From Clostridiales bacterium (GTDB lineage Bacteria > Bacillota > Clostridia > Lachnospirales > Lachnospiraceae): 39,778 bases of DNA. The stretch's first letter is position 1; the number at the start of each line of letters is the position of its first letter. The notes beneath the pieces were generated by a model. That model was not told where the DNA came from. It did not search any database and was given only the letters and a program-made list of their open reading frames with translations. The stretch lies in assembly GCA_012519695.1 (NCBI GenBank), contig JAAYPT010000064.1, forward strand, positions 1-39,778. Reading direction: 5' to 3'. Of the stretch, positions 14,016 to 39,778 are shown piece after piece. Made by a program: the position numbers and the translations under genes.

Positions 14016-14061
14016 AAGGCTTTCTCAAACTATGACACTTATGTTATAATGGGAAAGCCTT
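14016..14061 (+). terminator. Possible long-loop hairpin with an embedded promoter before mnmE
   Basis: AAGGCTTTC (14016-14024) pairs with GAAAGCCTT (14053-14061) around a 28-base loop. The T-tract after it is poor. Inside the loop lies TGTTATAAT, an extended -10 (TATAAT at 14045-14050), so the site may end the jag transcript and start the mnmE one. Confidence 0.4.
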
Positions 14062-14109
14062 ATTATGTGCGCAAGGAAAATATAGGCTTAGATATAGAAG
14101 GGAGCTCTT

Positions 14110-15501: not shown

Positions 15502-15575
15502 TATTTACCTATTTATAAAAATAGAAGCGGTAATTTAATGCAAATAGAAACTTGAAATAGAAAGAAGGATAAAAA

Positions 15576-17468: not shown

Positions 17469-17492
17469 TACAGGATTTGTGGAGTTAAAGTG

Positions 17493-18215: not shown

Positions 18216-18228
18216 AAAATTTGAATAT

Positions 18229-18260
18229 AAAAAGAGATTGGAAGTTTCCAATCTCTTTTT
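18229..18260. terminator. Bidirectional terminator between rsmG and the hydrolase gene
   Basis: AAAGAGATTGGAA paired with TTCCAATCTCTTT with a very tight loop and A/T tracts on both sides. It serves the convergent rsmG and hydrolase genes. Confidence 0.9.
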
Positions 18261-18261
18261 G

Positions 18262-19215: not shown

Positions 19216-19362
19216 TTAGAGTGTCCTCCCTCAACATATATTCTCTTTCTATTATTATAGACGAAATAATGAAGATATACAAATAAAAAATTGAAATTAA
19301 TCTTTAAATATTATATAAAATGATATAAAATTAGGTTATATGTGAATCTGTATGATTTAAAT

Positions 19363-19376
19363 AGAACATATGTTCT
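19363..19376. promoter_or_regulatory. LexA-box-like palindrome before the sensor kinase
   Basis: AGAACATATGTTCT is a perfect 14-base palindrome containing the Gram-positive SOS-box core GAAC-N4-GTTC. It ends two bases before the AAGGAGG of the kinase gene, so a bound repressor could block transcription. A near-copy lies at 23184-23196. LexA itself is not in the window. Confidence 0.45.
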
Positions 19377-19388
19377 GTAAGGAGGAAT

Positions 19389-20414: not shown

Positions 20415-21059
20415 ATGGCAGTAGAAGTAATAATAGCCGATGATCATTCTATGGTAAGAGAAGGATTAAAACAATTACTGGAATTGGATGGAGATATAGT
20501 AGTTATTGGGGAAGCAAGTGATGGTGTGGAATGCTTGGATTTATTAGAAAAAAAATTACCGCAAGCTCTATTATTGGATATCAATATGCCAAATATGAAT
20601 GGATTGGAAGTACTGGAAAAAATCAAAGAAAAAAATTTAGATACAAAGGTAATCATATTAACTGTTCATAATGAAGTAGAGTATTTATTAAAAGCGGTAG
20701 AAATTGGAATAGATGGATATATGCTAAAGGATTCCAATTCGGATGAATTGAAAAAAGCAATTTATAGTGTAATTGACGGAGAAAGCTATATTCAACCTAA
20801 CTTAATTCCAATTCTTAATTCCAAGATGATTGAAAGAGATGTGGAAAAGGAAAAGCTTGCATTACTTACTAAGAGAGAATTAGAAGTGTTAAAACTAATG
20901 GCTGTAGGTTCTTATAATAAGGAGATTGGCGAAAAACTGAACATTAGTGAGAGAACAGTTAAAAACCACATTTCAAGTATATTCAAAAAGATAGATGTTT
21001 CAGATAGAACTCAGGCAGCAATATTTGCAATTAGAAACGATTTGATTAGTATATTTTAA
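20415..21059 (+). CDS. NarL/DegU-family response regulator
   Basis: This 214-residue partner of the kinase just upstream has a receiver domain with the acidic pocket DD at 9-10, phosphoacceptor Asp55 (ALLLDINMPN) and conserved Lys in GYMLKDS. The C-terminal LuxR-type helix-turn-helix reads LTKRELEVLKLMAVGSYNKEIGEKLNISERTVKNH. It resembles DegU and LiaR in size and layout. The controlled genes are not evident, though the neighbouring hydrolase and parS region may be chance neighbours. Transcription ends in a hairpin that contains a parS site. Confidence 0.93.
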   Translation: MAVEVIIADDHSMVREGLKQLLELDGDIVVIGEASDGVECLDLLEKKLPQALLLDINMPNMNGLEVLEKIKEKNLDTKVIILTVHNEVEYLLKAVEIGIDGYMLKDSNSDELKKAIYSVIDGESYIQPNLIPILNSKMIERDVEKEKLALLTKRELEVLKLMAVGSYNKEIGEKLNISERTVKNHISSIFKKIDVSDRTQAAIFAIRNDLISIF

Positions 21060-21092
21060 AAACTAATGATTTGAGGATTGGTTAACAAAAAG

Positions 21093-21123
21093 AGGAATGT
21101 TTCACGTGAAACATTCCTTTTTT
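21093..21123. terminator. Intrinsic terminator whose stem is a parS site
   Basis: The hairpin GGAATGTTTCAC/GTGAAACATTCC is followed by a run of seven T. Its centre (21098-21113) is TGTTTCACGTGAAACA, the canonical chromosomal parS bound by ParB/Spo0J. It ends the kinase/regulator transcript and probably nucleates ParB as well. Confidence 0.88.
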
Positions 21124-21180
21124 ATATCATAGGTAATACCGTGTTGTATTAAAGTGTAAAAATTATGATTTTTCTATGAT

Positions 21181-21357
21181 ATAAAACCGTTCCACCAAGG
21201 ATGTGTACCTCGCAGAAATGAAAATAATTAGTCGTGAGCAACACCGCTCGGGCGCAAAATAGTCCGGCAAGCAGACTATTTGTTCTATAATTGAAAATTA
21301 GGTTCTATTACATAAAAACCGTTCCGCTAAGAAGGTACACTTCGTATAGATAAAGTG
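21181..21357. repeat. Pair of imperfect direct repeats with a hairpin between them
   Basis: Two copies of about 45 bases, at 21181-21225 and 21312-21357, share ATAAAA(A)CCGTTCC followed by AAG and GTAC elements. Between them AATAGTC (21258-21264) pairs with GACTATT (21274-21280). The block lies wholly between the two parS sites and contains no open reading frame of note. It could be a degenerate intergenic repeat family or a small RNA. Confidence 0.5.
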
Positions 21358-21373
21358 CAAATAAATCTTAAAA

Positions 21374-21389
21374 TGTTTCACGTGAAACA
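21374..21389. promoter_or_regulatory. Second parS site
   Basis: TGTTTCACGTGAAACA, identical to the first copy 276 bp upstream, is set in a longer palindrome (AAAATG...CATTTT). It lies about 100 bp before parA. ParB (encoded just downstream) would bind here and spread. Confidence 0.92.
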
Positions 21390-21447
21390 TTTTCTGATAA
21401 ATTAATAAATGAATAATAAAATAATTATAGAATTACATATTCAAAAG

Positions 21448-21456
21448 TGATATAAT
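21448..21456 (+). promoter_or_regulatory. Extended -10 promoter of parA
   Basis: TGATATAAT gives a TG-extended -10 about 30 bases before the parA start. No good -35 is seen. Its closeness to parS suggests ParB feedback. Confidence 0.5.
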
Positions 21457-21487
21457 AGAAAAAGCATGAGAGAGAAAGGAAAATAAT

Positions 21488-22255
21488 ATGGGAAGAATTA
21501 TTGCTATTGCAAATCAGAAAGGTGGAGTCGGTAAGACAACAACTGCCATAAATTTATCAGCATGTCTTGCCGAAAATGGGAAAAAAGTATTGACCATTGA
21601 TTTAGATCCACAGGGAAATACAACCAGCGGTCTTGGAATTGAAAAAGAAGAATTGGAAAACACAGTATATGAACTTATGCTAGGAGAATGTACTGTGAGA
21701 GAAAGTATGATAAAAACAGAAATCGAAGGGTTACAGTTAATACCATCCAATGTGAATCTTGCTGGAGCAGAAATTGAATTGCTTGGTATCAATGAAAAGG
21801 AGTACATATTAAAAAATGAAGTAGATTACATACAGGATGATTTTGACTTTATTATTATTGATTGTCCTCCATCATTGAATATGTTAACTATTAATGCTAT
21901 GACTACAGCCAATACAGTATTAGTTCCAATTCAATGTGAATATTACGCATTGGAAGGATTAAGCCAGTTAATACATACGATTAATCTGGTACAGCAGAGA
22001 TTAAATCCAAGTTTACATATGGAAGGTGTAGTATTTACAATGTACGATGCCAGAACAAATTTGTCATTGCAGGTGGTTGAAAACGTAAAAAATAATTTGA
22101 ATACTACCATATACAAAACAATAATTCCAAGAAATATTAGGTTAGCAGAAGCACCAAGTCACGGACTTCCCATTAATTTATATGATTCGAAATCTGCCGG
22201 AGCAGAAAGCTATCGTCTGTTGGCAAAAGAAGTAATAGAAAGAGAGGATATATAA
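21488..22255 (+). CDS. parA: Chromosome partitioning ATPase ParA/Soj
   Basis: Deviant-Walker ATPase of the chromosomal partition system, 255 residues. The P-loop is KGGVGKTT at 11-18, with DLDPQGN and DFIIIDCPPSLNML following. It lacks the N-terminal DNA-binding extension of plasmid type Ia proteins, so it is the chromosomal Soj type, which in Bacillus also regulates DnaA. The stop is directly followed by parB. Together with two parS sites just upstream this makes a complete parABS locus. Confidence 0.96.
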   Translation: MGRIIAIANQKGGVGKTTTAINLSACLAENGKKVLTIDLDPQGNTTSGLGIEKEELENTVYELMLGECTVRESMIKTEIEGLQLIPSNVNLAGAEIELLGINEKEYILKNEVDYIQDDFDFIIIDCPPSLNMLTINAMTTANTVLVPIQCEYYALEGLSQLIHTINLVQQRLNPSLHMEGVVFTMYDARTNLSLQVVENVKNNLNTTIYKTIIPRNIRLAEAPSHGLPINLYDSKSAGAESYRLLAKEVIEREDI

Positions 22256-23164
22256 ATGGCAACCAAAAGAGGCGGATTAGGAAAAGGGCTGGATAGTCTT
22301 ATTACAGATAAAGTAGGAACCGGAAATGCACCGGTAGAACCTGTAAAGAGTAAAAAAGTAGAACCGGATAAAGAAGTTACTTTTGTGAAAATAGGAAAGG
22401 TAGAACCAAATAGAGAACAACCAAGAAAGAATTTTGATGAAGATGCATTGCTAGAGTTGTCTGAGTCAGTAAAACAACATGGTGTATTACAACCGTTATT
22501 GGTACAGGATAAGAAAGATTATTATGAAATTATTGCCGGAGAGCGAAGATGGCGCGCAGCTAAACTTGCAGGATTGAAAGAAGTACCTGTAATTATTAAA
22601 AATCTTACAGATCAGGAAATCGTAGAAATTTCATTAATCGAAAATATTCAAAGAGAAAATCTGAATCCAATTGAAGAAGCATTAGCATACAAAAGACTTT
22701 TAAACGAGTTTAATTTAAAACAGGATGAGGTAGCAGAAAGAGTATCAAAATCCAGAACAGCAGTTACTAATTCTATGCGTCTGTTGAAATTGGACGAGCG
22801 TGTACAGCAAATGGTAATTGATGATTTGATTTCCACAGGTCATGCAAGAGCATTATTGGGTATCGAAGATAAAGAGCAACAGTATGCAGTTGCACAACAG
22901 ATATTTGATGAAAAACTTAGTGTACGAGAGACAGAGAAATTAGTAAAAAAATTACAAAAGCAAAAGACAGAACCAACAAAGAAAATAGTAGATGAAAGTA
23001 TGTCTGTTTTCTTTGAGGATATGGAACAAAGATTAAAGTCAATTATGGGAACTAAGGTAGCAATTCATCAAAAAGATAATCAAAAAGGAAAAATAGAAAT
23101 AGATTATTACTCTACCGATGAATTAGAAAGAATTATGGAATTATTCCAATCAATACACGAATAA
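22256..23164 (+). CDS. parB: Chromosome partitioning protein ParB/Spo0J
   Basis: CTP-dependent clamp that loads at parS. It has 302 residues. The N-terminal CTPase/ParB domain shows EPNREQPRKNFDEDALLELSESV and GERRWRAAKLAG; the central helix-turn-helix that reads parS includes KSRTAVTNSMRLLKL and STGHARALLGI; the C-terminal dimerization domain ends the protein. The N-terminus (MATKRGGLGKGLDSLI) carries the ParA-stimulating basic/GLG motif. It begins right after parA. Only one chromosomal ParB homologue is visible, with no Noc. Confidence 0.96.
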   Translation: MATKRGGLGKGLDSLITDKVGTGNAPVEPVKSKKVEPDKEVTFVKIGKVEPNREQPRKNFDEDALLELSESVKQHGVLQPLLVQDKKDYYEIIAGERRWRAAKLAGLKEVPVIIKNLTDQEIVEISLIENIQRENLNPIEEALAYKRLLNEFNLKQDEVAERVSKSRTAVTNSMRLLKLDERVQQMVIDDLISTGHARALLGIEDKEQQYAVAQQIFDEKLSVRETEKLVKKLQKQKTEPTKKIVDESMSVFFEDMEQRLKSIMGTKVAIHQKDNQKGKIEIDYYSTDELERIMELFQSIHE

Positions 23165-23183
23165 AATACATAAACAAATAAAC

Positions 23184-23196
23184 AAACATATGTTCT
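23184..23196. promoter_or_regulatory. Imperfect second LexA-like palindrome before the DUF4446 gene
   Basis: AAACATATGTTCT matches the palindrome at 19363-19376 except for its outer left bases, and the shared segment AACATATGTTCTRTAA extends beyond the core. It too lies in the leader just before a GGAGG. Confidence 0.35.
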
Positions 23197-23212
23197 ATAA
23201 ATGGAGGCACTT

Positions 23213-23737
23213 ATGATATCGGAATTTTTAAATTTAAAATTTACAGTAGATGATTTTTTACTTACCTTTGCAATTATGGCAGGAGTAATGTTACTATTAC
23301 TGATTCTTTTGATTATAAATATGGTAAAGACCAGTAAACTGAAAAAGAAATATAACTCATTTATGGTTGGAAAGGATGCAAAATCCTTAGAAGATAATTT
23401 GATAAAAAGAATTAATCAGGTAGAGGAAGTATTAGTATCTGAAAAGAAAAACGAAGAAAATATTGAAAAGTTATTCCGCAGTATGAAAGTAACTTTTCAA
23501 AAAGTGGGAATGGTTAAATATGATGCATTTAATGAAATGGGAGGAAAACTTAGCTTTTCATTAGCATTATTAGATCAGAAAAATGATGGATTTATTATAA
23601 ATGCAGTACATAGTAGAGAAGGCTGCTACACTTACATTAAAGAAATTATTGACGGAAATTCAGTACTTGTTTTAGCAGAAGAAGAAAAAGAAGCGTTAAA
23701 TATTGCAATGGGAGTAAGTACGAAAAAACCAGAGTAA
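23213..23737 (+). CDS. DUF4446 family membrane-anchored protein
   Basis: This 174-residue protein of unknown function has one membrane helix near the N-terminus (AIMAGVMLLLLILLIINMV), a charged coiled linker, then a soluble domain containing FRSMKVTFQKVGMVKYDAFNEMGGKLSFSLALLD, the conserved core of DUF4446. The start at 23213 is chosen because GGAGG lies five bases before it; the ATG at 23201 overlaps that site. The gene is commonly found just downstream of parB in Clostridia, suggesting a link to chromosome or envelope biology, but this is inference. Confidence 0.85.
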   Translation: MISEFLNLKFTVDDFLLTFAIMAGVMLLLLILLIINMVKTSKLKKKYNSFMVGKDAKSLEDNLIKRINQVEEVLVSEKKNEENIEKLFRSMKVTFQKVGMVKYDAFNEMGGKLSFSLALLDQKNDGFIINAVHSREGCYTYIKEIIDGNSVLVLAEEEKEALNIAMGVSTKKPE

Positions 23738-23750
23738 TTAGGAGTATAAC

Positions 23751-24458
23751 ATGAGAAAATGCCATGTGTCAGAATTAACAGGAAATGAAATATTAGCCCA
23801 GTCGATATATCTGGAGGATGGTCAAATACTATTAAAAAAGGGAGAAGTCATAGAAAGCTCCTATAAGGAATCACTTCTTGCATTAAATGTAGAGGAGGTT
23901 TTTGTCCAAGACAAATATGAAGTATACGAAAGACCAAACTTATATTTAAAGAGTAATCAGATAAGAGAGTTACAACAGCAGTTGGAAGATGTATTAGTTC
24001 ATCATGTGTATAAGGATAATAATAGGTTGAAAAAGTTGTTGAAACTTGCAACGGAGATGACGGATGCTGTTTATAGTCGGGAGAACCAAAAGAAAATTGA
24101 CGTTAGAGAGCACAGTGGAAATATTTATGAACATATTATCCTGACAACATTGTGGAGCATTATTGTAGGAAAAGAGTGTGGATGCGAAAAAGAAAGACTG
24201 GAGCAAATTGCTTTGGGAGCGTTGTTGCATGATTTGGGATTGTGCTATGTAAATGCAGATTATAAAAATTGTTGCTTTGAAAAAATGCCGCCGGTGGAAA
24301 TTTTTGAATTAAAGAAACATACCATTTTAGCATATACTGCACTGGAAAAAGAAACATGGATACCGGAAATTTCAAAAAAAAATGATTTTATCACATCACG
24401 AAAAAATGGACGGAAGTGGATATCCGTTAAAGCAGAAAAACCAGGAGTTGGAATGTAA
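23751..24458 (+). pseudogene. Front part of an HD-GYP domain protein, ending early after an A9 tract
   Basis: This 235-residue frame starts after TTAGGAG. It has an N-terminal domain (GNEILAQSIYLEDGQILLKKGEVI) typical of HD-GYP proteins and the HD metal site GALLHDLG with His160-Asp161. After residue 210 the sequence becomes out of style (NDFITSRKNGRKW) because the A9 run at 24374-24382 shifts the frame. With eight A the frame would continue into the HHE...GSGYP motif of the next entry, giving one protein of about 335 residues. HD-GYP domains usually degrade cyclic di-GMP. Confidence 0.75.
24374..24382 (+). other. A9 homopolymer that breaks the HD-GYP frame
   Basis: TC followed by nine A and TG. 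Removing one A restores TCA AAA AAA ATG ATT and joins the two halves of the HD-GYP signature exactly. Runs of this length are prone to replication, transcription and sequencing slippage. Confidence 0.85.
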
Positions 24459-24759
24459 GATTATACAGGTGTGTGATACAGCAGACGGTATTTTAAGTGG
24501 AATAGAAAGAGAGCAGGGAACACTGGAGGATGCTTTAAAAGAATTAAGAAATCATAAAAAATATGATAGTAATGTGGTAAAAGTTTTTGAAAGTAAAATA
24601 GCAAAGTATCCGGTAGGGACTAAGATGCAAATAGAAAATGGAAAAGAAGTTATTGTGGTATCCCAGACAGAAGATTCTGCACAGCCTGAAGTTATAGAAG
24701 TGTCAGATGGTGATATCCACGAAAGAAGACTGATAGAAAAAGTAATCCACATATTTTAA
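24382..24759 (+). pseudogene. Rear part of the HD-GYP domain protein
   Basis: This 125-residue frame starts exactly at the A9 tract and opens with MILSHHEKMDGSGYP, the HHExxxGxGYP motif that defines HD-GYP phosphodiesterases, then QVCDTADGILSG with a further metal ligand region. There is no ribosome binding site before its ATG, so it is the second half of the gene upstream rather than a separate gene. Without it the front half lacks part of the metal site and should be inactive. Confidence 0.75.
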
Positions 24760-24840
24760 AAAATATTAAAAATACTGTGGAAAAAGAATATTTTGTATTA
24801 TATAATAAAAAGAGAAATATCCCATGAAGGGAGTGGCAAT

Positions 24841-25716
24841 ATGCACAATTTTTTAAGAAGTATTGGATTTAAGAATTTAATAAAAAAGAAAGATTTAGAT
24901 ATTTTAATAGATGATATTATAAAGAATCCGGATAAAAAAGTAATTACAGAAGATGCAAAGGGAAATGTTTTTGCAGAATTAAGTAAGCAATATGGAGAAT
25001 CTATCGGAATTGCAGTTCGCGGAGAGTATGTAGAGGAAGAATTCCAAATGGATTATTATTACCCATATTTTGTTGGAAGTGGAGTTTCTACCGAGGAAAA
25101 GGTAGAAATTGAAAAGCGTTCTGATAGGGAAGCCTATGCAGGTGTTTGTGATGAAGTACGCCTTGGTGTAACACTTATCTTTTATCTGCAAAATGTCATT
25201 GAATATTTACAGGAAGCTGGTGGCATTGCACGAAGAATTCCTGCAAATACAACATTATCTGCATTGTCTACTGGTGGAAAAATTATTTTTCCAGTATATA
25301 AAAATGAGTCTCAGATAAAAAAAGGAGAAAATTACAGCCAAAAAAGAAGTCATCTGATTGCGGCTGCAAGAGAGGGTGATGAAGAGGCAATTGAAAGTCT
25401 TACGTTAGAAGACATTGATACTTACTCCATGATTTCAAGAAGAGTAATGAAGGAAGATATATTATCTATTGTAGATACTTATTTTATGCCATATGGAATT
25501 GAAAGTGATCAATATAGTATCATGGGAGAGATTCTTAATTATGATACTATTGAAAATAGTGTAACATCAGAAAAATGTTATATTCTTACAGTGGATAGTA
25601 ATAATTTGGTCTTTGATGTGTGTATCAATGAAAGTGATTTACTGGGAGAACCTGCGGTAGGTCGTAGATTCAAAGGAAACATTTGGATGCAAGGCCAGAT
25701 TAATTACCATATATAG
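24841..25716 (+). CDS. DUF3881 family protein
   Basis: This 291-residue soluble protein of unknown function starts MHNFLRSIGFKNLIKKKDLD at ATG 24841, with GAAGGGAG upstream. Other recognisable stretches are YYYPYFVGSG and EVRLGVTLIFYLQN. As far as I recall, DUF3881 is restricted to Lachnospiraceae and relatives, which supports the host assignment. It ends eleven bases before the tRNA-Arg fragment and is the last intact host gene before the integrated element. Confidence 0.85.
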   Translation: MHNFLRSIGFKNLIKKKDLDILIDDIIKNPDKKVITEDAKGNVFAELSKQYGESIGIAVRGEYVEEEFQMDYYYPYFVGSGVSTEEKVEIEKRSDREAYAGVCDEVRLGVTLIFYLQNVIEYLQEAGGIARRIPANTTLSALSTGGKIIFPVYKNESQIKKGENYSQKRSHLIAAAREGDEEAIESLTLEDIDTYSMISRRVMKEDILSIVDTYFMPYGIESDQYSIMGEILNYDTIENSVTSEKCYILTVDSNNLVFDVCINESDLLGEPAVGRRFKGNIWMQGQINYHI

Positions 25717-29610: not shown

Positions 29611-29824
29611 TCTGCTCCCCTTTCTCACACTCTAACCCCTAAATTACAAGCTAACTTACCGAAAAAGATATATTATCTCCCTGAATATATCTATCTCATA
29701 AGAGATATATCGCAAAGTTGGTCTGACAAGGAGGTGTTTGCTAAGATTAAAAGTTAGCCAAAAATCGCACCTTTGTTTTTCGGATGTTTTTACACTACTA
29801 TGAGGGCAAAGGAGAGTGATTGTT
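29611..29824. other. Gap between element parB and the lipoprotein gene
   Basis: This 214-bp stretch has repeated GATATAT elements (29665-29710) with an inverted repeat ATATCT...AGATAT. A GGAGGTG precedes only a seven-codon open frame at about 29733. No gene is convincing. Confidence 0.4.
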
Positions 29825-30526
29825 ATGACAAAGAAAATGTTGCTGATAGGTTTACTACTCACGCTGATTATCACTTTGAACGGTTGTTATAGTGACGACC
29901 CGAAGCCAAATGAGAAGGCTTCTGAAGTCCCCATTTCTTCTTTTTCGGAGAGTATAGAAACGACTTCCGACTCTGAACCGACTAAGGAAACTGAATCGGA
30001 GCAGCCGGAGGTAAATACTCAGGAAGAAACAGAGTATTCTAAGGTCATCGCTGAAACGGATACAACGACAGTATCGGTTACAAAGGAAACTCCGAAATCC
30101 AACGATACCGAAAAGGATAATAAGCCTGAAAAAGTGGAAAAACCTATTGAAACAACAAAGCCGAAGGAAGATACTCCTTCAAAAAGCGAACCAAAGGTAG
30201 AAAAAGAACCTGACCCAGAAATTAAACCTGACCCACCAAAGGAAACGGCAACACAAGAGCCGGAAACTCCAGCAGAAGAATTTGATATTGATTATTGGAT
30301 TGCTTATGCAAAGAATTATGCCACGAGCATAGGATTGGAACTTGATGTAACTGCTGTTGATTGTTGGGATAATCCGATTGCTGCTAATCCGAAATGTACG
30401 ACCATTGAGGAAAATATCATTAGTAGACTTAACCGATACAAAAATGTTGAGGAGTTTACAGCAGTATGGATATGGGCAGAAAAAGTATCAGATAATGGTT
30501 ACGAACTCTATATCGGTTATGCTTAA
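29825..30526 (+). CDS. Element lipoprotein with a Pro/Glu/Thr-rich spacer
   Basis: From ATG 29825 it has 233 residues. A lipoprotein signal ends in LNGC with Cys21 as the lipidated residue. Residues 25-150 are a low-complexity spacer rich in Glu, Thr, Pro, Lys and Ser (KPKEDTPSKSEPKVEKEPDP). The C-terminal 75 residues form a compact domain (FDIDYWIAYAKNYATSIGLE ... CWDNPIAANP). The GTG at 29816 lies too close to the GGAG to be the start. It is probably exposed on the cell surface next to the adhesin encoded downstream. Function unknown. Confidence 0.8.
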   Translation: MTKKMLLIGLLLTLIITLNGCYSDDPKPNEKASEVPISSFSESIETTSDSEPTKETESEQPEVNTQEETEYSKVIAETDTTTVSVTKETPKSNDTEKDNKPEKVEKPIETTKPKEDTPSKSEPKVEKEPDPEIKPDPPKETATQEPETPAEEFDIDYWIAYAKNYATSIGLELDVTAVDCWDNPIAANPKCTTIEENIISRLNRYKNVEEFTAVWIWAEKVSDNGYELYIGYA

Positions 30527-30546
30527 AAAAGAATAAAATAAACGGA

Positions 30547-30577
30547 ACGCATCGTAGAAAATACGGTGCGTTTTTTA
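30547..30577 (+). terminator. Terminator after the lipoprotein gene
   Basis: ACGCATCGT paired with ACGGTGCGT around a seven-base loop, followed by six T. Confidence 0.88.
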
Positions 30578-30599
30578 TGTCAAAGGAGGCATTCAAACT

Positions 30600-33500
30600 A
30601 TGAAAAAGAATAATTTCAGGAAAGGTATGTCAGCTGTTCTTGCCCTTGTGATGTGCCTTACAACTTTCGTAGGTTTTGGCTCGACCACAGCTTTTGCTGC
30701 CGGAGAATCTGCCGAAGCCTATCTTGTTTCTTTTCCTCGTGAGGGTGATGTGAACTATGACGGTCAATGGGGACACGGAAGCCTGAACTTTATGAATGGC
30801 TGGAAAGGATTAGAAACAAAGCGTACCAATGCGTATGCAATCAATTCGTACACCGGAAAGGTTTGTTATTGTATCGAACCGGGTACACCTCTTGCACCGG
30901 GCGATAACTTCGTATCAAGAGATGAAACGTATTGGGATAATTACCCTACCACTTACAACAAGACAATTTCCGGCGATGAAATCAAACTTTTCATTGGTAG
31001 AATTATGCAGTATGGCTATCAGGGAAATATCTCTACTACTTGGAAAAGTCAGAATGAAAACGAAGCCAATAATATCGCTCATATTGCTGCCACTCAGCTT
31101 TTAATATGGGAAACGATTGTAGGCGAACGTGACGAAAACTTCAATAAGGTTGATACCGGAAGTTATGATGCTGTAATTGATACGATTAGTGCAAGCCATC
31201 CACTTCGCAATAAGATTATGAGCTATTACAACAGTATGGAAAGTAGCGTAAAGAACCATACAAAGACGCCGAGCTTCTTTGCAAAATCTACGGGTAAGGC
31301 TCAGACAGTTGAACTTGAATGGGATGGTAGTCAGTACACAGCAACATTGACAGACACAAATAAAGTGCTTGGCAATTACAAATTCAGTTCCAACCATTCT
31401 GATATGAAGTTCACAGTAAATGGCAATAAACTTGTGATTACAACTGCAACTGCTCCGAGTAGCACAGTAACAATCACAGCCGAAAAACAGAACTCTCAAA
31501 GAAAAGGCGTTATCGTATGGGATGACGGAACTTATGCACCGGGAGTTGGAAGGCAGAATCTTACAACCTACGCACAATCCGTAAATGACCCAGTAAAAGG
31601 CTTTTTGAAAGTAAAAGTAAGCTATGGTTCTTGTGAAATCGTAAAGTCGAGTGAAGATGGTGTCGTTGATGGAATTAAGTTTACTGTATCCGGAAACGGT
31701 GTGAATAAGACAGTAACGACAGCAAATGGTGGCAAAATTCAGGTTGATAACCTTATGCCGGGCGTTTATACCGTCACAGAACAGAACTACGATAGATACG
31801 AGCCACAGGAAGTCAGACGAGTAACCGTAGTTGCTGGTCAGGTGGCAAAAGTAACTTTTAGCAATGTTCTCAAACGTGGCGACCTTCAGGTAATCAAATC
31901 TTCTGAGGATAACTTGGTTGAGGGTGTAACATTCCATCTTTACGGAACTTCCTTGTCCGGTATTGCAGTTGATGAGTACGCAGTAACAGATAAGAACGGT
32001 GTGGCAACTTTTGATGATGTGCTTATTAGTGGTTCTACTCCTTATACCATTGAAGAAGTTGATACAGCAATCCGTTATGTAGTTCCTGAAAATCAGACAG
32101 CACCGATTAGCTGGAAAGAAGTCACAACTCGTAACTTTACTAACATTCTCAAAAAGTTCGCAGTAACCGTAACAAAGAGCGATGTTGAGGAAGGAACAGC
32201 TCAGGGCAATGCAACTCTTGGTGGTGCAGTTTATGGCATTTTTAAGGGCGATACTCTTATTGATAAGTATGTAACTGATGAAAACGGTCAGTTTACCACA
32301 GATGAATATATCTGTGATGACGATTGGACTATCCGAGAAATCACTCCGTCTGAGGGATACTTGCTCGATTCTACCATTCATAAGGTAGGTGCTGAACCTG
32401 AACTTTATACGGTGGAACATAATCTCACAGCGAATGATGTTGTGGAGCAGGTCATCAAAGGAAATATCGCTATCATCAAACATACTGACGATGGCGAAAC
32501 ACAGATTGAAACTCCTGAGAACGGGGCAACTTTTGAAATCTATCTCAAATCTTCTGGAAGTTATGAAGCAGCCGAAGAAGATGAAAGAGATGTAATCGTG
32601 TGTGATGAAAACGGATTTGGTCAGACAAAGAATATGCCTTATGGTATTTACACAGTACACCAGACTTCCGGTTGGGAAGGTCGTGAACTAATGGATGACT
32701 TTGATGTGTTTATTGCACAGAACGGACAGACTTATCGCTATATTATCAACAATAGAAACTTTGAAAGTTTCGTAAATGTGGTAAAAGTCGATGCTGAAAG
32801 TGGAAAGACAATTCCTTATGCCGGAGCTGGGTTCAAGATTTTTGACCCTAATGGTAATCAGGTAACAATGACATTCACTTACCCTACTCCGACTACGATT
32901 GACACATTCTTTACTGATGCCAATGGTTCTTTGGTAACTCCTGAGAAACTTGATTACGGTAAGGGATATTCGATTGTCGAGGTACAAGCACCTTACGGAT
33001 ATGTGCTTGATGAAACTCCGGTTTACTTTGATATTACAGAGGAAAACTCTACGGAAGAAAGTGGTGTGACGGTTATTAAAGTGAATAAGTCTAATATGGC
33101 ACAGAAAGGAACTATCACAGTTGAGAAAACTGGCGAAGTATTTTACGGTGTCAATGTAAGTGGTACTGAAGATACAGACGTTATCTATCAGCCAATTTAT
33201 GAGATTGCCGGACTTGAAGGTGCAGTTTATGAAATCCGTGCAGCCGAAGATATTTATACTCCTGACGGAACACTCCGTTATTCAAAGGGCGAAGTAGTTG
33301 ATACAATCACTACAACTTTTGATGGGTTTGTTACAAGTAAGGAACTCTATCTTGGTAAGTACGAGGTTCAGGAAATCGAAGCACCTTACGGAATGGTTCT
33401 AAATGATGAAATCCATTCTGTGGAACTTGTTTATGCCGGACAGAATGTTGCCGTAACTGAAACGTCTACTTCTTTCTATAACGAAAGACAGAAAGTAGAA

Positions 33501-34853
33501 ATCAGCCTTGAAAAATCTCTCGAAGTAAATGAGATTTTCAGCATTGGCAATAACGGAGAAATCAAAAATATCAGCTTTGGACTTTATGCTGCTGAAGATA
33601 TTACTTCTATAAGTGGCACAGTAATTCCGGCTGACGGTCTTATTGAGATTGTGACTCTTGATGAAAACGGAAAAGCAGTTCTTAAAACAGACCTTCCTTT
33701 TGGCAACTACTATGTAAAGGAAATTGCCACAGACGAACACTATAAGTTAAACGATACAAAGTATCCGGTTGAATTTGCTTATGGTGGTCAGGACACAGCA
33801 GTAATCAAAATCGCAGTTAATAATGGCGAGAAAATTGAAAACGAACTTATCTACGGTTCTGTATCAGGTATGAAGAAAGATGAAAACGGAGAAGCACTTG
33901 GTGGTGCTGTTATCGGTTTATTTGCTTCCTCTGATGTAGAGTTCACTGAGGATAATGCAATTTTAACTACTACTTCAGCAGAAGATGGTAGTTTTTCTTT
34001 TGCCAATATCCCTTATGGAACTTGGTATGTGAGAGAAATTAAGCAGCCTACCGGATTTGTTCTTGATGAAACTGTGTTTGAAATCATCATTTCCAAAGAC
34101 GAGGAAGTTGTTGAGGTAGAGATTATCAATGAATATGTGCGTGGCAACATTACACTTACAAAAGTTGATGAAGAATATCCTGATAACAAGTTGACCGGAG
34201 CAGAGTTTGAAGTCTACAAAGACATCAACGAAAATGGAGAGATTGACGAAGCCGATGAGTTTATGGGCAATCTCGTAGAAGTGGAAATTGGTATCTATGA
34301 GATGAATGACTTGTTTTATGGCAAGTATCTCGTTTGCGAAGTGAAAGCACCGGAAGGTTTCTTGATTGATGAGGGTGTCTATGCAGTATTCATTGAAACG
34401 GATGAAACAACCTATGCTGTTGAAAACAAAGCGGGAGTTGGATTTATCAATGCTGCTATGAGAGGTAATCTCAAAATCGTAAAAACATCTTCTGACGGAA
34501 AAGTGGAAGGTTTTGCTTTCAGAGTAACCGGAGAAAACGGTTATGATATGACATTTGAAACTGACAAGAATGGAGAAATCTTCATTGAAGGACTCCGTAT
34601 TGGCGAATACAAAGTGTCAGAAGTAGCAAATCAGGCATCGGCTGTTTATATTATGCCAGCAGATAAGAACGCTACTATCAAACTTGATTCTACAACGATT
34701 GTAGAAATGCACAACGAGTATAGAGATACACCGAAAACGGGCGATGACAGTAACCTTGTGTTGTGGTTCGCTCTTGCCGGAATTTCTGTTCTTGGCATTG
34801 CAGTAACTTCCGTTGTTGCATACAAGAAGAACAAAAAGGAGGGCGATGAATAA
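30600..34853 (+). CDS. Thioester-domain surface adhesin with CnaB repeats and sortase signal
   Basis: This 1417-residue cell-wall protein has a signal peptide (cleavage near AFA-AG, residue 34). A TQXA thioester domain follows: VCYCIEPG with Cys91 as the likely thioester cysteine and ATQLLIWE with Gln166 as its partner. Such domains bind host proteins covalently. Residues about 335-1370 hold roughly ten CnaB-type domains, each beginning like RGNLKIVKT or YGSVSGMKK and carrying the Lys and Glu needed for internal isopeptide bonds. The sorting signal is TPKTG at 1377-1381, a variant of LPXTG, followed by a membrane helix and basic tail. It is a typical cargo of Tn1549-like elements. Confidence 0.93.
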   Translation: MKKNNFRKGMSAVLALVMCLTTFVGFGSTTAFAAGESAEAYLVSFPREGDVNYDGQWGHGSLNFMNGWKGLETKRTNAYAINSYTGKVCYCIEPGTPLAPGDNFVSRDETYWDNYPTTYNKTISGDEIKLFIGRIMQYGYQGNISTTWKSQNENEANNIAHIAATQLLIWETIVGERDENFNKVDTGSYDAVIDTISASHPLRNKIMSYYNSMESSVKNHTKTPSFFAKSTGKAQTVELEWDGSQYTATLTDTNKVLGNYKFSSNHSDMKFTVNGNKLVITTATAPSSTVTITAEKQNSQRKGVIVWDDGTYAPGVGRQNLTTYAQSVNDPVKGFLKVKVSYGSCEIVKSSEDGVVDGIKFTVSGNGVNKTVTTANGGKIQVDNLMPGVYTVTEQNYDRYEPQEVRRVTVVAGQVAKVTFSNVLKRGDLQVIKSSEDNLVEGVTFHLYGTSLSGIAVDEYAVTDKNGVATFDDVLISGSTPYTIEEVDTAIRYVVPENQTAPISWKEVTTRNFTNILKKFAVTVTKSDVEEGTAQGNATLGGAVYGIFKGDTLIDKYVTDENGQFTTDEYICDDDWTIREITPSEGYLLDSTIHKVGAEPELYTVEHNLTANDVVEQVIKGNIAIIKHTDDGETQIETPENGATFEIYLKSSGSYEAAEEDERDVIVCDENGFGQTKNMPYGIYTVHQTSGWEGRELMDDFDVFIAQNGQTYRYIINNRNFESFVNVVKVDAESGKTIPYAGAGFKIFDPNGNQVTMTFTYPTPTTIDTFFTDANGSLVTPEKLDYGKGYSIVEVQAPYGYVLDETPVYFDITEENSTEESGVTVIKVNKSNMAQKGTITVEKTGEVFYGVNVSGTEDTDVIYQPIYEIAGLEGAVYEIRAAEDIYTPDGTLRYSKGEVVDTITTTFDGFVTSKELYLGKYEVQEIEAPYGMVLNDEIHSVELVYAGQNVAVTETSTSFYNERQKVEISLEKSLEVNEIFSIGNNGEIKNISFGLYAAEDITSISGTVIPADGLIEIVTLDENGKAVLKTDLPFGNYYVKEIATDEHYKLNDTKYPVEFAYGGQDTAVIKIAVNNGEKIENELIYGSVSGMKKDENGEALGGAVIGLFASSDVEFTEDNAILTTTSAEDGSFSFANIPYGTWYVREIKQPTGFVLDETVFEIIISKDEEVVEVEIINEYVRGNITLTKVDEEYPDNKLTGAEFEVYKDINENGEIDEADEFMGNLVEVEIGIYEMNDLFYGKYLVCEVKAPEGFLIDEGVYAVFIETDETTYAVENKAGVGFINAAMRGNLKIVKTSSDGKVEGFAFRVTGENGYDMTFETDKNGEIFIEGLRIGEYKVSEVANQASAVYIMPADKNATIKLDSTTIVEMHNEYRDTPKTGDDSNLVLWFALAGISVLGIAVTSVVAYKKNKKEGDE

Positions 34854-34936
34854 TGAAAGAGATTATCGGAATTGTTTTGGTGGCTTTCATTATCGGTGGT
34901 TTTATCTTTTTGCAGATTAGAAACCGTAAAAAATAA
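34853..34936 (+). CDS. 27-residue single-span membrane peptide coupled to the adhesin
   Basis: The ATG overlaps the adhesin stop codon (TAATG). The peptide begins MKEIIGIVLVAFIIGG, forms one membrane helix, and ends in basic residues RNRKK. It lies within the adhesin transcript and before its terminator. It could assist adhesin anchoring or sortase handling, but this is only inference from position. Confidence 0.6.
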   Translation: MKEIIGIVLVAFIIGGFIFLQIRNRKK

Positions 34937-34951
34937 ATAGTGATGAGAACG

Positions 34952-34986
34952 AGGGGCGGCCATTGTAATGATGATCGCCCCTTTAT
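34952..34986 (+). terminator. Hairpin after the adhesin unit
   Basis: AGGGGCG (34952-34958) pairs with CGCCCCT (34976-34982), followed by a weak TTTAT tail. Confidence 0.65.
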
Positions 34987-35004
34987 CACTTGATTGGAGG
35001 AAAA

Positions 35005-35322
35005 ATGAACAATCCAAATACCGTTGAAAACAGAGTGCTTCGTATCCTTCAAGAAAATACCGAAGCACGAAATGATGATATGAAACTATATCTAATGGTC
35101 TGCAACGACTGTTACAGACAGACCGAAAACAGAGATGTGGGGTCACTTCCATTTGCGGTTATTATGAACTGTTATAAGGAGCTGAAACTCCCACATTTTG
35201 AAAGTGTTCGTAGGTCAAGAGCGAAGCTGCAATCGAAACACCCTGAACTCGCAAGTAGTCCCGAAGTGAAAAAGGCTCGTAAGCGATGTGAGGGTATGTA
35301 TCGAGAGTATGCACGAAAATAA
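35005..35322 (+). CDS. Small basic conserved element protein
   Basis: This 105-residue protein starts at ATG 35005 after TTGGAGG. It reads NTVENRVLRILQENTEARND at the front and FESVRRSRAKLQSKHPEL near the middle, followed by a basic helix. Similar short proteins are found in phages and conjugative elements of Firmicutes, where they are thought to act on DNA. No function is known to me. Confidence 0.65.
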   Translation: MNNPNTVENRVLRILQENTEARNDDMKLYLMVCNDCYRQTENRDVGSLPFAVIMNCYKELKLPHFESVRRSRAKLQSKHPELASSPEVKKARKRCEGMYREYARK

Positions 35323-35346
35323 TTACTGAAAGCGAGATGAAAAGAT

Positions 35347-35940
35347 ATGCAGAAAGAAGTAATTGGAGATTATGAGGTGCTTGCTTCTGTTCACGTTGGC
35401 GAAAAGGAAGTTGTTATCGGAGAAAAAGAACCCAATAATGACGGGTTAAGATTTATGTGTGGCTATATGGAGCGAACCGATATATTTAATCTTTGTAATG
35501 AATGTGTATATAGTGATGATTATATCGAAATTGCACATCTTTTCGGTAGCCGAATAAAAGAAGCAGCAGAACTTTTTAAGAACAAAGACAAGGAGCTTGG
35601 TATTCCGGTCACAGTTATTACTGAAAAAGATTGTATTCCCGACCATTATTCTCACGACATCAACGGAAAGGTTATTGCAATAGACCCCAAAGTATTAAAG
35701 CCTGAGTTTCAACGAGCCGACAAGCAACTCTATTTAGTTACGGGTGGCTTTGGTGCTTCTGCCAATAGTCGAGGTAGTGCTGTATTTTGCACAAATCTTC
35801 TGACGGGTAAAAGCACACGTTATGAACGAATGGATGTTATGGGCGAAGTCAAACCCGAATGTATGCCTGAATGGGCAAAAAGAAAGTTGGAATCAATGAA
35901 CCAGACTCGTGCAAAGAAAAATAAGGACAGAGAACGATAA
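35347..35940 (+). CDS. Conserved element protein of unknown function
   Basis: This 197-residue protein begins MQKEVIGDYEVLASVHVGEK. Its middle (IDPKVLKPEFQRADKQLYLV) and the following GGFGASANSRGSAVFCTNLLTG stretch, with glycines, serine and a cysteine, look like a conserved core. It has no signal peptide. It precedes the methyltransferase unit by two genes and is probably cotranscribed. I recognise it only as a recurring neighbour in Tn1549-like elements. Confidence 0.65.
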   Translation: MQKEVIGDYEVLASVHVGEKEVVIGEKEPNNDGLRFMCGYMERTDIFNLCNECVYSDDYIEIAHLFGSRIKEAAELFKNKDKELGIPVTVITEKDCIPDHYSHDINGKVIAIDPKVLKPEFQRADKQLYLVTGGFGASANSRGSAVFCTNLLTGKSTRYERMDVMGEVKPECMPEWAKRKLESMNQTRAKKNKDRER

Positions 35941-35952
35941 GGAGGTATTACC

Positions 35953-36210
35953 GTGAAAGATAAAGCAAACTTTCAGCAGAAAGTAAAAGTAATGAATAAG
36001 TTGTTTGAAGCCGGCTGTGATACGGAAAAGAAATTACAGCAGCTTGATATGGAAGGAATCTTAAAAATCCCAAACATTACTATCCCTGATATGAATATCA
36101 TTATGGACCTTCAAAAACAGACGAAAGCAAATAAACTGTTTGCTTATTTGGGAGGAGGTTCTGATATTCATTTGAATATTAAATCAAATCAAAATACAAA
36201 TAACGAATAG
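35953..36210 (+). CDS. Short helical conserved element protein
   Basis: This 85-residue protein starts with GTG 35953 after GGAGGT. It is helical and charged, with KVMNKLFEAGCDTEKKLQQL and IPNITIPDMNIIMDLQKQTK as the conserved parts. It lies 14 bp before the giant methyltransferase gene and is likely translated with it. Function unknown. Confidence 0.65.
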   Translation: MKDKANFQQKVKVMNKLFEAGCDTEKKLQQLDMEGILKIPNITIPDMNIIMDLQKQTKANKLFAYLGGGSDIHLNIKSNQNTNNE

Positions 36211-36224: not shown

Positions 36225-39200
36225 ATGGCACGAAAATATGACCTAATTTCGGAGCTGTATAACCGAACCTGCAAAACTGTGGTAGCCAATCCGCAGAACT
36301 GGCAAGCATTTCTTAGGTCTGCTTGTCGTAATTATAAATTACGATATGACGAGCAGCTTTTAGTGTATGCACAGCGACCTGATGCAACAGCAGTTCTTGA
36401 AATTGAACGTTGGAATACCCGATTTGGAAGATGGGTTAATCGTGGTGCAAAAGGTATTGCAGTATTTGAAGATGCAAACCGAGAAAGACAGCGATTGACC
36501 CATTATTTTGATATTTCCGATACGCACGGTAGCAGATATTCTCGCCCCGTTCCCCTTTGGGAAATGAAAGAAGAATATGAGTCAGATATTATCGAAACTC
36601 TTGAAAGCACCTTTGGAACACTTGATAACAAAATCAATCTTGCAGAAGCAATTATGAGTGCTTCACGCAATGCTACGGAAGATAATATCCCTGATTATAT
36701 CAGCGACCTGCTCTACTCAGCCGAAAATAGTTTCCTTGAAGGACTTGACGATGATATGATTACTTCTCTGTATAAGTCCGTTGTGACAAACAGCGTGGCA
36801 TATATGATGATGTCCCGACTTGGTTTGGATACAGAGTATTATTTTGAAAACTCCGACTTTTCAGATGTGACCAACTTTAATACTCAGGATACGCTTAATG
36901 CACTTGGTTTTGCTTCCAGCGATATAGCTGAAATGGGACTTACAGAGATTGCTAAAACAATCGCAGCATTGGATAGAGAAAATCGCATAATTGCAGATAA
37001 AAGCAATAATGAGTACAATGAGGTCGAAAAAGAAACCGAAAGGAGTTTTGAAGATGGACAAACTGACCTACACGATGGTGGGCGATTACAACCTACCGAA
37101 TTTGGAATTGCCGGAACAACCGGAAGTGAGTCTGGGCAGATACGCACAGATGAGGAGGAAATATCTGAAGGAACACCACAAGGTTCTGTACTTCAATTTC
37201 CTGACGAAAGGCACGTTGACGACACACTTAGCAGAAGTGGAACAGAGAGCAATCGAGATGGAGGAAACTCTCGTGAAACAGATGGCTCAGAAAGAGGGTC
37301 TAACCGAGCAGATGAAAGCGACAGATATGATGTCGTGGGTTCAGATGATGAACAATCTGAGGAACGCAGCTCAGGAAATCGTGAAGACGGAAGTGGTATT
37401 CGCCTAAGTGATGATGTAAAACCACTCCCTTCCGTAAATCAGCAATTATCATTTTTAGATACGAAAGCAGAGGAAAAAGAAACCTCTGCTTTTGTCATTC
37501 CACAAGAAGTTATTGATGATACTTTGAGTGGTGGAAGTGGTTTTGAAAATGGGAAAATGCGTATCTATGAGCAGTTCCAAAAGAGCCTTTCCACAAAAGA
37601 AAATGCAGAGTTTCTTAAAAAAGAATATGGTATTGGCGGTGCTTCCCATTCAGGAGGACACGATGAATACCAAAACTGGCACGATGCGAAAGGTATTCGC
37701 ATTACGAAAGGATATGCCGAAAACAGACCACAAGTTTTGCTGAATTGGAATAAGGTTGCAACACGTATTTCAGAACTTATCCGTATGGATAGATACCTTA
37801 ACGCAAAGCAAAAAGAGGAATATCCGAAATGGCTTGAAGAACAAGAAATCAAGCGAGCTGAAGCAGAAGAACGAAGAAAGAACAGAGAACTTTTGTCTAT
37901 TGCTCCTGACGAAAAAGTTACCGATTCTGATGGGGATTTGGTTGGTAAGGAAGTTACTATTGATGACCACCTTTTCGTAATTGAAAGTGTTGGAAAAATT
38001 AGTGGAGATGTATCACTTCGAGATGTGACTTTCCAAAATGCCAATGGTTTTCCGATTAACAGAGTTGAGAAAATAGGATTTATCCGTAACTTATTGGAAC
38101 AACAGAACTTATCTGAAGAAAAGGTTGCAGAACAGCCGAGTGAAGCAAAATATGAATATCATCTTGGAGATATGGTTTATATTGGTGCAAGCCAGTATGA
38201 GATACTTTCCTTTGATGAAAACCGTGTAATGCTTTATGATTTCGATATTCCTCTATTCAATAAGGAAATGACTCGTGAAGAATTTGACCGTAAGGTTAGA
38301 GAGAATCCGATGAATGACCACTTGATTGCAAAAGAACAAATTCAGGAGGATAAATCAGCAGAAAGTGTGGATAACTTTTCTGATTTTTCTCCAAATGTGA
38401 ATTACGAGGATGCTTTCTTCACACACCCTGACGGTTCGAGCATTGTATGGATGTATTATAATCCCGACAGCGAAGCCGGAGGTCAATATGTAACAAATTT
38501 TGTATCGGTTGATGATGTAAAAGAAGCAGCACGTAGCCATAACGAACCTGAAAAGTTCTTTGATTATCTTGGTAGTATTGCAAGACAAGAACTTGCAGAT
38601 ATTGGTACAGAATGGTTCAAAGGAGCAGAAATTCAATTTGCCAAGGAGCCGACTTTTACGGATTGTACCAAAGAAACAATGGACAATCTAATTGGTTACG
38701 CTATGATGGAACAGAAAAAATCTATTGCTTCAAGACTTGTCGATTTTGTAAAAGATGTTGATTTCTATGAGTATCAGGACAATATCGAGTTTGGCGAAAC
38801 GGATGAAGAAACCATAGAAAACATACTGTCCCATCTTTCTGATAAATCGTATGTAGAAGGTGTAATTGAATACCTCAAACAGATGAAAGAAAACATTGAA
38901 GATGAGCCAGTATATCGTTCAAAGGTGGACAGACTTCTGAATGATGTTAAGGAGTTGCTGCCGGAAGAACCAATTCCCGTCTATGACCGAGAGAGTGAAA
39001 TTCTTTATGCTGTGTTACACGCATTAAAGATAGACGATATTGAGCTTGATTACGATGCAGACGGACTTGTTGCAAGAGATGATGACTATGAGTGGCACGG
39101 TGCAGACTTCTATCACTTCTTGATTGATGAAGCTTTTGTATTTGAAGATGACGGTTCTGTTCTTGGAATCAGACCGGAACTTCTTACAGATTTTAGGGCG

Positions 39201-39778
39201 TTGAGTGAACACAATGGTGTTGAGTGCAAAGTCAAAAACGGTTATGTTGCGACCAACATTGGCAATGTTCCGGTTGAAGATTATAGAGAAATCGTAGCAA
39301 TGCAAAATGGCTTTGACAGTTACGATGAAATGTATCAGCAAGGAATTCGTATAGGAAACGGATACGACAAAGAGCCTGAACCAATCGTACCAGCGTGGGA
39401 GCAACAGAAGAAATCAAAAGTCAGAAGTTTTGATTTACACCCTGAAATACCAATGGCTGACCGTCACACATTCGATTTGAAGGCAAACGAAGTTGAATCT
39501 GTTGGTAAGAAAGAACGCTTCCGAAGAAATATGGAGGCAATCAGAGTCTTGAAAGAGTGCGAATTTGAAAACAGATTTGCTACTCCTGAAGAACAGATTG
39601 TCTTGTCAAAATATGTTGGTTGGGGTGGCATTCCCGAAGCGTTTGATGAAAATAATGGTGCTTGGGCAAATGAGTTTACGGAGCTTTACGCTGCCCTCTC
39701 TCCTGAAGAATATGCTTCTGCAAGAGAAAGTACCCTTACTGCATTTTACACGCCACCGGAAGTCATCACAGCCATTTA
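36225..39778 (+). CDS. Giant element methyltransferase(-helicase) protein, 5' part
   Basis: The frame is open from ATG 36225 (after GGAGGTGC) to the window end, about 1184 codons, and continues beyond. Residues about 10-90 resemble the ArdC-type N-terminal DNA-binding domain (QRPDATAVLEIERW ... GRWVNRGAKGIAVFE). Residues about 275-395 are a low-complexity linker rich in Ser, Gly, Asp, Glu and Arg that coincides with the overlapping TnpV gene. Later segments include HLGDMVYIGASQYEIL and other accessory domains. The C-terminal part in view (YVGWGGIPEAFDE, STLTAFYTPPEVI) starts the N6-adenine methyltransferase domain. In this family a helicase domain usually follows. Such proteins are thought to protect element DNA from host restriction. 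Confidence 0.88.
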   Translation, partial: MARKYDLISELYNRTCKTVVANPQNWQAFLRSACRNYKLRYDEQLLVYAQRPDATAVLEIERWNTRFGRWVNRGAKGIAVFEDANRERQRLTHYFDISDTHGSRYSRPVPLWEMKEEYESDIIETLESTFGTLDNKINLAEAIMSASRNATEDNIPDYISDLLYSAENSFLEGLDDDMITSLYKSVVTNSVAYMMMSRLGLDTEYYFENSDFSDVTNFNTQDTLNALGFASSDIAEMGLTEIAKTIAALDRENRIIADKSNNEYNEVEKETERSFEDGQTDLHDGGRLQPTEFGIAGTTGSESGQIRTDEEEISEGTPQGSVLQFPDERHVDDTLSRSGTESNRDGGNSRETDGSERGSNRADESDRYDVVGSDDEQSEERSSGNREDGSGIRLSDDVKPLPSVNQQLSFLDTKAEEKETSAFVIPQEVIDDTLSGGSGFENGKMRIYEQFQKSLSTKENAEFLKKEYGIGGASHSGGHDEYQNWHDAKGIRITKGYAENRPQVLLNWNKVATRISELIRMDRYLNAKQKEEYPKWLEEQEIKRAEAEERRKNRELLSIAPDEKVTDSDGDLVGKEVTIDDHLFVIESVGKISGDVSLRDVTFQNANGFPINRVEKIGFIRNLLEQQNLSEEKVAEQPSEAKYEYHLGDMVYIGASQYEILSFDENRVMLYDFDIPLFNKEMTREEFDRKVRENPMNDHLIAKEQIQEDKSAESVDNFSDFSPNVNYEDAFFTHPDGSSIVWMYYNPDSEAGGQYVTNFVSVDDVKEAARSHNEPEKFFDYLGSIARQELADIGTEWFKGAEIQFAKEPTFTDCTKETMDNLIGYAMMEQKKSIASRLVDFVKDVDFYEYQDNIEFGETDEETIENILSHLSDKSYVEGVIEYLKQMKENIEDEPVYRSKVDRLLNDVKELLPEEPIPVYDRESEILYAVLHALKIDDIELDYDADGLVARDDDYEWHGADFYHFLIDEAFVFEDDGSVLGIRPELLTDFRALSEHNGVECKVKNGYVATNIGNVPVEDYREIVAMQNGFDSYDEMYQQGIRIGNGYDKEPEPIVPAWEQQKKSKVRSFDLHPEIPMADRHTFDLKANEVESVGKKERFRRNMEAIRVLKECEFENRFATPEEQIVLSKYVGWGGIPEAFDENNGAWANEFTELYAALSPEEYASARESTLTAFYTPPEVITAI
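37054..37407 (+). CDS. TnpV-family protein encoded inside the methyltransferase gene in another frame
   Basis: This 117-residue protein starts at ATG 37054, eight bases after a clear AAGGAG (37040-37045). It reads MDKLTYTMVGDYNLPNLELP and then PEQPEVSLGRYAQMRRKYLKE and MMSWVQMMNNLRNAAQEIV, which I recognise as the TnpV family named from Tn4451-type transposons, usually of similar length. It lies in frame +1 relative to the large gene, wholly inside it. The TnpV role is not well known; a link to excision has been suggested. Its family-like sequence makes a chance frame unlikely. Confidence 0.8.
   Translation: MDKLTYTMVGDYNLPNLELPEQPEVSLGRYAQMRRKYLKEHHKVLYFNFLTKGTLTTHLAEVEQRAIEMEETLVKQMAQKEGLTEQMKATDMMSWVQMMNNLRNAAQEIVKTEVVFA

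Follow-up and report, generated by a model that had tools for sequence, protein, structure and literature searches.

Can a single stretch of bacterial DNA be maintained for two unrelated proteins, each read from its own frame? Few long genes are known that lie within a second frame of a bacterial gene, and such cases are often met with doubt. An earlier note on a 39,778-nucleotide stretch of Clostridiales DNA (the window) had proposed such a nested pair, in which the linker of a giant host protein is constrained by the frame of a TnpV-family gene; shuffling, substitution patterns and a survey driven by the host gene support this proposal, and the shared stretch appears, from its sequence, to be kept by selection for both proteins.

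The outer ORF (positions 36225-39776, + strand) codes for 1184 residues, the N-terminal part of a giant methylase-helicase protein; it stays open across the whole overlap and then runs off the contig, whose end cuts it. Its N-terminal domain, delimited by alignment of host N-terminal domains, occupies 36225-37037 (+). The inner ORF is open in the ORF listing from 36991 to 37407 (+) with an ATG at 37054, giving a tnpV gene of 117 codons plus TAA (37054-37407, +) in frame +1 with respect to the host. Eight bases 5' of this ATG is a Shine-Dalgarno sequence, AAAGGAG (37039-37045, +), which in the host frame is part of Glu-Arg-Ser. TnpV matches Pfam family PF14198 over its full length (model positions 1-111 of 111) at 145.9 bits against a cut-off of 27 (E 5.5e-43), and the presence at this site of a TnpV-family reading frame with a ribosome binding site is thus confirmed. 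The second reading of tnpV, host residues 277-395 (37053-37409, +), is a low-complexity linker rich in S/G/D/E/R/Q/T; the open host frame and its linker, previously placed at about residues 275-395, are likewise as described.

The identity of the host has to be taken from its relatives, because the 1184 residues in the window match no Pfam family above cut-off. A 2289-aa homologue (L033), with which the window protein shares 66% identity over residues 1-573, has SNF2, ResIII, Helicase_C and Eco57I domains above the Pfam cut-off; a 2559-aa relative (L041) has methylase (N6_Mtase included), SNF2, ResIII and Helicase_C; and in L042 the methylase match lies just under the cut-off (24.5 v 25.3 bits). 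Methylase and SNF2 helicase are therefore joined in one chain in L033 and L041, and the window copy ends before such domains. Support for calling the host a methyltransferase, as was done at the outset, comes through these two homologues and not from Pfam matches in the window's own 1184 residues. Adenine-methylase plus SWI2/SNF2 in one very long mobile-element protein, as in L033 and L041, is also the make-up of the DarB-like dyad of polyvalent proteins, according to the accessible part of PMC5512222, and on our own reading of this domain content the host is DarB-like. The label 'ArdC-like' for the N-terminal domain has as its sole source the annotation of a remote Listeria relative, 29.5% identical over residues 3-162; Pfam finds no ArdC-like domain in L033, L041 or L042. 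The assignment of the pair to a conjugative element stands in part: the window encodes ParA/ParB and a SpaA-repeat protein, but no relaxase or T4SS gene was identified among the proteins scanned.

Overlapping frames share conservation, and the TnpV frame could in principle be a shadow of a conserved host linker, only the host protein being made. To score the inner frame we used an HMM built from 38 free-standing TnpVs only, so that the host frame is without influence on the scores. The window TnpV scores 150.0 bits. Across the matched stretch, 1000 shuffles that left the host's amino acids and codon set unchanged gave at most 66.1 bits, and none reached half of the observed score; the average, 34 bits, means that the frames are strongly coupled and that such a control is needed. 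The TnpV frame remained open over the 114 matched codons in 32 of the 1000. Extended to the other nested copies (100 shuffles each), the same procedure left 115 of 116 unique copies above all their own shuffles, the score of the remaining one (L096) being equalled by 1 in 100. That shuffles average 34 bits and climb to 66 is what a shadow would predict; the 145.9-bit match to a curated family, and the match to free-standing TnpVs that have no host frame, are not.

Substitution patterns point the same way. Among the 80 nested copies above 100 bits there are 3160 pairs, 2949 of them in the identity bins considered here and 211 outside; these pairs, like our other counts, include related sequences many times over. 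At 75-90% host-domain identity (64 pairs), differences before the overlap fall at host codon positions 1, 2 and 3 with frequencies of.152,.108 and.400, whereas inside the overlap, for the same 64 pairs, the values are.279,.159 and.111. The fastest-changing base in the overlap is the TnpV third position; since host position 1 is TnpV position 3, the pattern there is that of a TnpV gene. Comparison of codon-position changes in both frames across homologues, a check suggested in the earlier note, thus shows the overlap following TnpV. TnpV identity exceeds linker identity in 2948 of the 2949 binned pairs, which makes the linker the less conserved frame. By shuffles and substitution pattern alike, the TnpV frame is conserved beyond what the host frame imposes, and with the recurrence of an internal Shine-Dalgarno sequence and ATG (below) we give a TnpV frame that merely shadows the linker hardly any credence.

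How widespread is the arrangement? Starting from TnpV, many relatives are nested and others free-standing: 193 loci reduce to 158 unique TnpV stretches, 116 of them nested, 40 of them free-standing and a further 2 free-standing but at contig edges, and the relative frame is identical in all 116 unique nested copies. Because hosts should not be picked via TnpV, we also searched with 18 host N-terminal domains from nested loci, each ending at the TnpV start. Within the class 78 of 291 genomes had a match and within the phylum 30 of 398, to which 13 viral-contig loci are added; many of the matches are short stretches in other, smaller proteins, and the survey covers the fetched part of the listed matches (L047-L118, L120-L122, L124-L156 and L199-L211; identical N-domains taken as one, some elements being already known via TnpV). 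Hosts were counted if the N-domain scored at least 100 bits and the frame continued for at least 450 nt, a TnpV match being accepted at E<=1. On this basis 89 of the 90 host-driven loci with a continuing frame have a TnpV match in the +1 frame at the same place: 57/57 at N-domain scores of at least 250 bits, 11/12 at 150-250 and 21/21 at 100-150. The sole exception is L124.

Eight hosts without a continuing frame were left out of this count. Four (L202, L070, L082, L208) lie at contig edges, where the frame does not continue; in three (L060, L105, L116) TnpV is present and the host frame stops in or near the overlap, L116 being a damaged locus with both frames cut short; and L206 is a short frame without TnpV. 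TnpV was also missing beside weaker N-domain matches in other proteins (L089, L091, the second proteins of L161 and L205) and in short frames (L090, L092-L095, L210, L211), and none is reported near the N-domain of a more distant methylase, L102. Among the host-driven loci no continuing host keeps the linker without a TnpV match, the situation that the earlier note had named as telling against the pair, and L124 itself has no linker. Its N-domain match ends only 31 residues before the motif ISLF, compared with 106-174 residues from N-domain match to a like motif in twelve chosen TnpV-bearing hosts; among 24 hosts, a like motif directly follows TnpV in L065, L073, L106, L111, L112, L115 and L125. 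The short spacing in L124 means that the linker is missing where TnpV is missing.

Nested TnpV-like frames are also present in S. suis (L042, 85 bits) and Selenomonas (L045, 96 bits) and, scoring 17-57 bits, on plasmids recorded from Virgibacillus, Streptococcus agalactiae, Anaerococcus, Ruminococcus albus, Enterococcus faecalis and Listeria; weaker matches reach plasmids of Bacilli, Tissierellia and Negativicutes. The weakest, L126-L132 (18-24 bits, E 0.001 to 2e-5), rest mainly on place and frame, as do L225, L227 and L229, for which there is no shuffle control.

Is the host frame in turn constrained, or is only TnpV made, the supposed host being two genes, one for an N-terminal-domain protein and one for a downstream SNF2 protein, with tnpV between them? 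Public annotation is divided on the matter. Both genes are listed in none of the ten public records that have a nested pair and an annotation table: TnpV is listed and the full host is not in L041, L045 and L197, the host is listed and TnpV is not in L042, L224, L226, L227, L228 and L229, and neither is listed in L225 (PLSDB tables being incomplete, with pseudogenes omitted). The tables for Monoglobus (L041) and Selenomonas (L045) give TnpV and a shortened SNF2 protein with no N-terminal gene, and that for Cohnella (L197) gives TnpV with the host frame missing, as a divided host would have it; the three host-driven loci whose host frame ends in or near the overlap fit this too. In five of the records, on the other hand, the family is annotated as a single long protein, and in a sixth, from Listeria, a single 501-aa protein spans the overlap. 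An annotation fault is exposed in either case, one gene, the other or both being missing in all ten, and annotation rules do exclude long nested genes, as stated in the part of PMC8665328 available to us.

The frame itself argues against a divided host. That nested copies have no stops (80/80) is so by construction, because 'nested' required an open host frame; the fair count is of TnpV-carrying, non-edge, host-driven loci, in which the frame is open in 89 of 92. In shuffles that preserve TnpV residues and codons, the probability of an open host frame averages 0.085 per copy (8.5%; median 0.03). The equivalent frame of free-standing TnpVs contains 1-12 stops in 36 of 36 genes (the 40 without L060 and L105, which are host-associated, and without two that score below 100 bits). 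Third positions are slowed in nested relative to free-standing TnpVs at matched identity (.295 v.341,.383 v.533 in the 60-75% identity bin,.509 v.595 and.542 v.646). S/G/D/E/R/Q/T/P make up 72% of the linker and 53% of the corresponding frame in free-standing genes; the G+C contents of the nested and free-standing sets, 0.517 v 0.439, affect both the stop counts and this composition. With these caveats of definition and G+C, the host frame is also constrained within the overlap, and we judge a host split into two genes improbable. Mean hydropathy and charge place the linker on the disordered side (0.352, the boundary being at 0.446) and TnpV and the host N-domain on the ordered side; the linker is probably flexible.

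If both proteins are made, TnpV needs a start of its own. The best Shine-Dalgarno core near the start is of 7 bases in 42 of the 80 nested copies, 6 in 1, 5 in 30 and 4 in 7, and the start is ATG in 77 of 80. The search takes the best among several starts and has no shuffled control, and free-standing genes score about equally (cores of 5-7 bases in 33/36), so that it demonstrates presence rather than excess. The inner ribosome binding site and start, whose lack of conservation had been proposed as an argument against the pair, are hence present (80/80 and 77/80), in a search that does not separate nested from free-standing genes. With stricter spacing the Shine-Dalgarno sequence is absent from 4 of the 88 nested copies above 80 bits. 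In the host frame this site reads Glu/Asp-Arg; AGG encodes the Arg of the final Glu/Asp-Arg pair ahead of TnpV in 49 of 73 copies, and that of such pairs elsewhere upstream in 37 of 162. These sites were chosen by position, since choice by Shine-Dalgarno motif would be circular, and 7 of the 80 copies have no such pair; a binomial P for the bias is too small because the copies are related. In several of the weak, distant copies there are AGGAGG-like sites together with an ATG roughly 45 codons ahead of the matched core. Frameshifting that would fuse the N-terminal domain to TnpV seems unlikely because of the internal start.

Computation thus gives homology, recurrence in one frame and one place, constraint on both frames and an internal start signal. 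We infer that both products are translated, and consider it very probable that this is an old nested gene pair, TnpV being produced by internal initiation and the host linker being a by-product kept open. One mRNA would yield two proteins over the same 354 bases: ribosomes starting at 36225 would read straight through to make the giant methylase/SNF2 protein, and others would start internally at the Shine-Dalgarno sequence (37039-37045) and ATG 37054 to make TnpV, a predicted compact helical protein. Selection would act mainly on TnpV, at the cost to the host of a 119-residue, probably flexible linker with an open frame and suitable composition. The overlap would have arisen once, long ago, and have persisted while its copies diverged strongly and, probably, spread horizontally.

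The single origin is our inference from the same place and frame everywhere; the overlap is probably old, an age that rests on sequence divergence because horizontal transfer may explain much of the taxonomic spread. Which came first, nested or free tnpV, is a narrower question within the nested-pair reading. A free tnpV may have inserted into a host gene, its second frame becoming the linker. L124, which lacks both TnpV and linker, would look like an uninvaded host, but may be a loss, because hosts L073, L111 and L114 of the same genome keep TnpV. TnpV is better conserved and confidently folded where the linker is of low complexity, in line with insertion, and in 55 of 80 copies TnpV lies closer to the host gene in codon usage; yet nested copies are more diverse in sequence than the free-standing ones sampled. 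We rate insertion at just under an even chance.

Conversely, tnpV may have been born or fixed as an overprint inside a methylase-helicase ancestor and have later escaped, perhaps several times, into small transposons. The window TnpV shares 49% and 47% identity with the free-standing L021 and L013, more than with the second nested copy in the window's genome (L003, 26%), so that free-standing copies look like part of nested diversity, which favours escape. In a corrected tree of 71 nested and 31 free-standing TnpVs (thinning at 80% identity; three long rows kept, four very long ones and some that were broken or short removed), the best topology has 7 nested/free-standing changes, 2 being required by well-supported branches, and the AU test does not reject a single free-standing clade (p=0.081). 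Unequal rates could mimic the escape pattern, and escape of an overprinted gene is a tentative reading, held at rather less than even. If true, it would make the TnpV family an export of an overlapping gene, and such genes a source of mobile genes. A claim of several escapes was dropped: the AU test gave p=0.041 with Cohnella L197 taken as free-standing, and p=0.081 with L197 as nested and five nested rows added.

Three loci may be recorded here. L003/L119 (G000:C63:121511-122621) is a second, very diverged nested pair in the window's genome, which also has a free-standing TnpV (L002/L123, G000:C36) near an ORF for a group II intron reverse transcriptase. At L105 (G219:C216) two tandem TnpV copies lie about 7 and 487 nt past the N-domain, the host frame ending right after the first; this may be a snapshot of duplication and escape.

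What TnpV does, and why the overlap is kept up, can be approached only speculatively. An AlphaFold2 model from 16 sequences (mean pLDDT 90.5, pTM 0.73) has two short strands and five helices. Foldseek, which can miss relatives, found no match to it at E<=0.001 in the PDB (best E 5.2) or in BFVD (best viral entry Q8W6J4_2, E 0.48), and the best hit in a sequence search of solved structures was a designed protein (E 0.021). A tentative assignment of Q8W6J4_2 to phage PBC5 was dropped when the PBC5 record's annotation gave no confirmation. A single-sequence model of the host was uninformative (mean pLDDT 38.4). A role for TnpV in excision has been postulated via homology with lambda Xis, according to the accessible part of PMC3158075; the missing PDB match at E<=0.001 neither supports nor excludes such a role. 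Ten picked ORFs near free-standing TnpVs comprise three large serine recombinases, two Mob_Pre proteins and five of varied kinds, and on a Campylobacter coli plasmid TnpV and a recombinase gene overlap by four bases. No recombinase was found among the window proteins scanned, the element itself running past the end of the contig. For TnpV we consider an accessory part in recombination or transfer the most likely, a view that we hold with low confidence. The DarB methylase-helicase protects injected phage DNA, according to the part of PMC5512222 available, and by analogy co-expression of TnpV with a DarB-like entry protein would fit. The overlap perhaps ties an accessory transfer or recombination protein to methylase-helicase expression and inheritance; it is not required for TnpV, because free-standing TnpV exists. 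The role becomes testable through mutations silent in the other frame. At L194, L213 and L216 a free-standing TnpV immediately precedes a 639-aa ORF; in L194 this ORF is annotated as a predicted tet(O/W/32/O) mosaic resistance gene.

The TnpV family PF14198, whose name comes from a Tn4451 gene, is matched at full length by the window tnpV and has free-standing relatives in mobile elements, some of them beside large serine recombinases or Mob_Pre proteins; unlike these relatives, the window gene sits in another frame of a giant host gene and has no DNA of its own. The accessible main text of PMC5512222 has no occurrence of 'TnpV' or 'overlapping'. Long overlapping genes of bacteria described in the available parts of PMC4683798 and PMC8665328 are similarly embedded in a longer gene's other frame, but the pair of PMC4683798 is of recent origin in E. 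coli (again from the part available), whereas the tnpV/host pair is widespread, with strongly diverged copies, and its named family also occurs free-standing. A literature search on TnpV, overlapping genes and the element type yielded no description of the TnpV overlap; most subscription papers being outside its reach, this is no proof of absence. The pair scores against a curated family, is met again in many diverged mobile-element genes and has opposite substitution patterns inside and outside the overlap, and so provides a large natural data set on how two proteins share one DNA.

Upstream of the pair, positions 9404-25713 of the window resemble a chromosomal origin region, with DnaA, RNase P protein, YidC, Jag, MnmE, MnmG, RsmG and ParA/ParB families. 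Nearer to it, 29816-36210 is similar, by annotation and lengths, to a run ahead of the pair in Monoglobus pectinilyticus (L041) of SpaA-repeat protein, small hypotheticals and methylase-helicase, which has two small genes more than that of the window. TnpV of L041 is 76% identical to the window TnpV and its host N-domain only 58% identical, a difference that hints at recombination inside the host gene.
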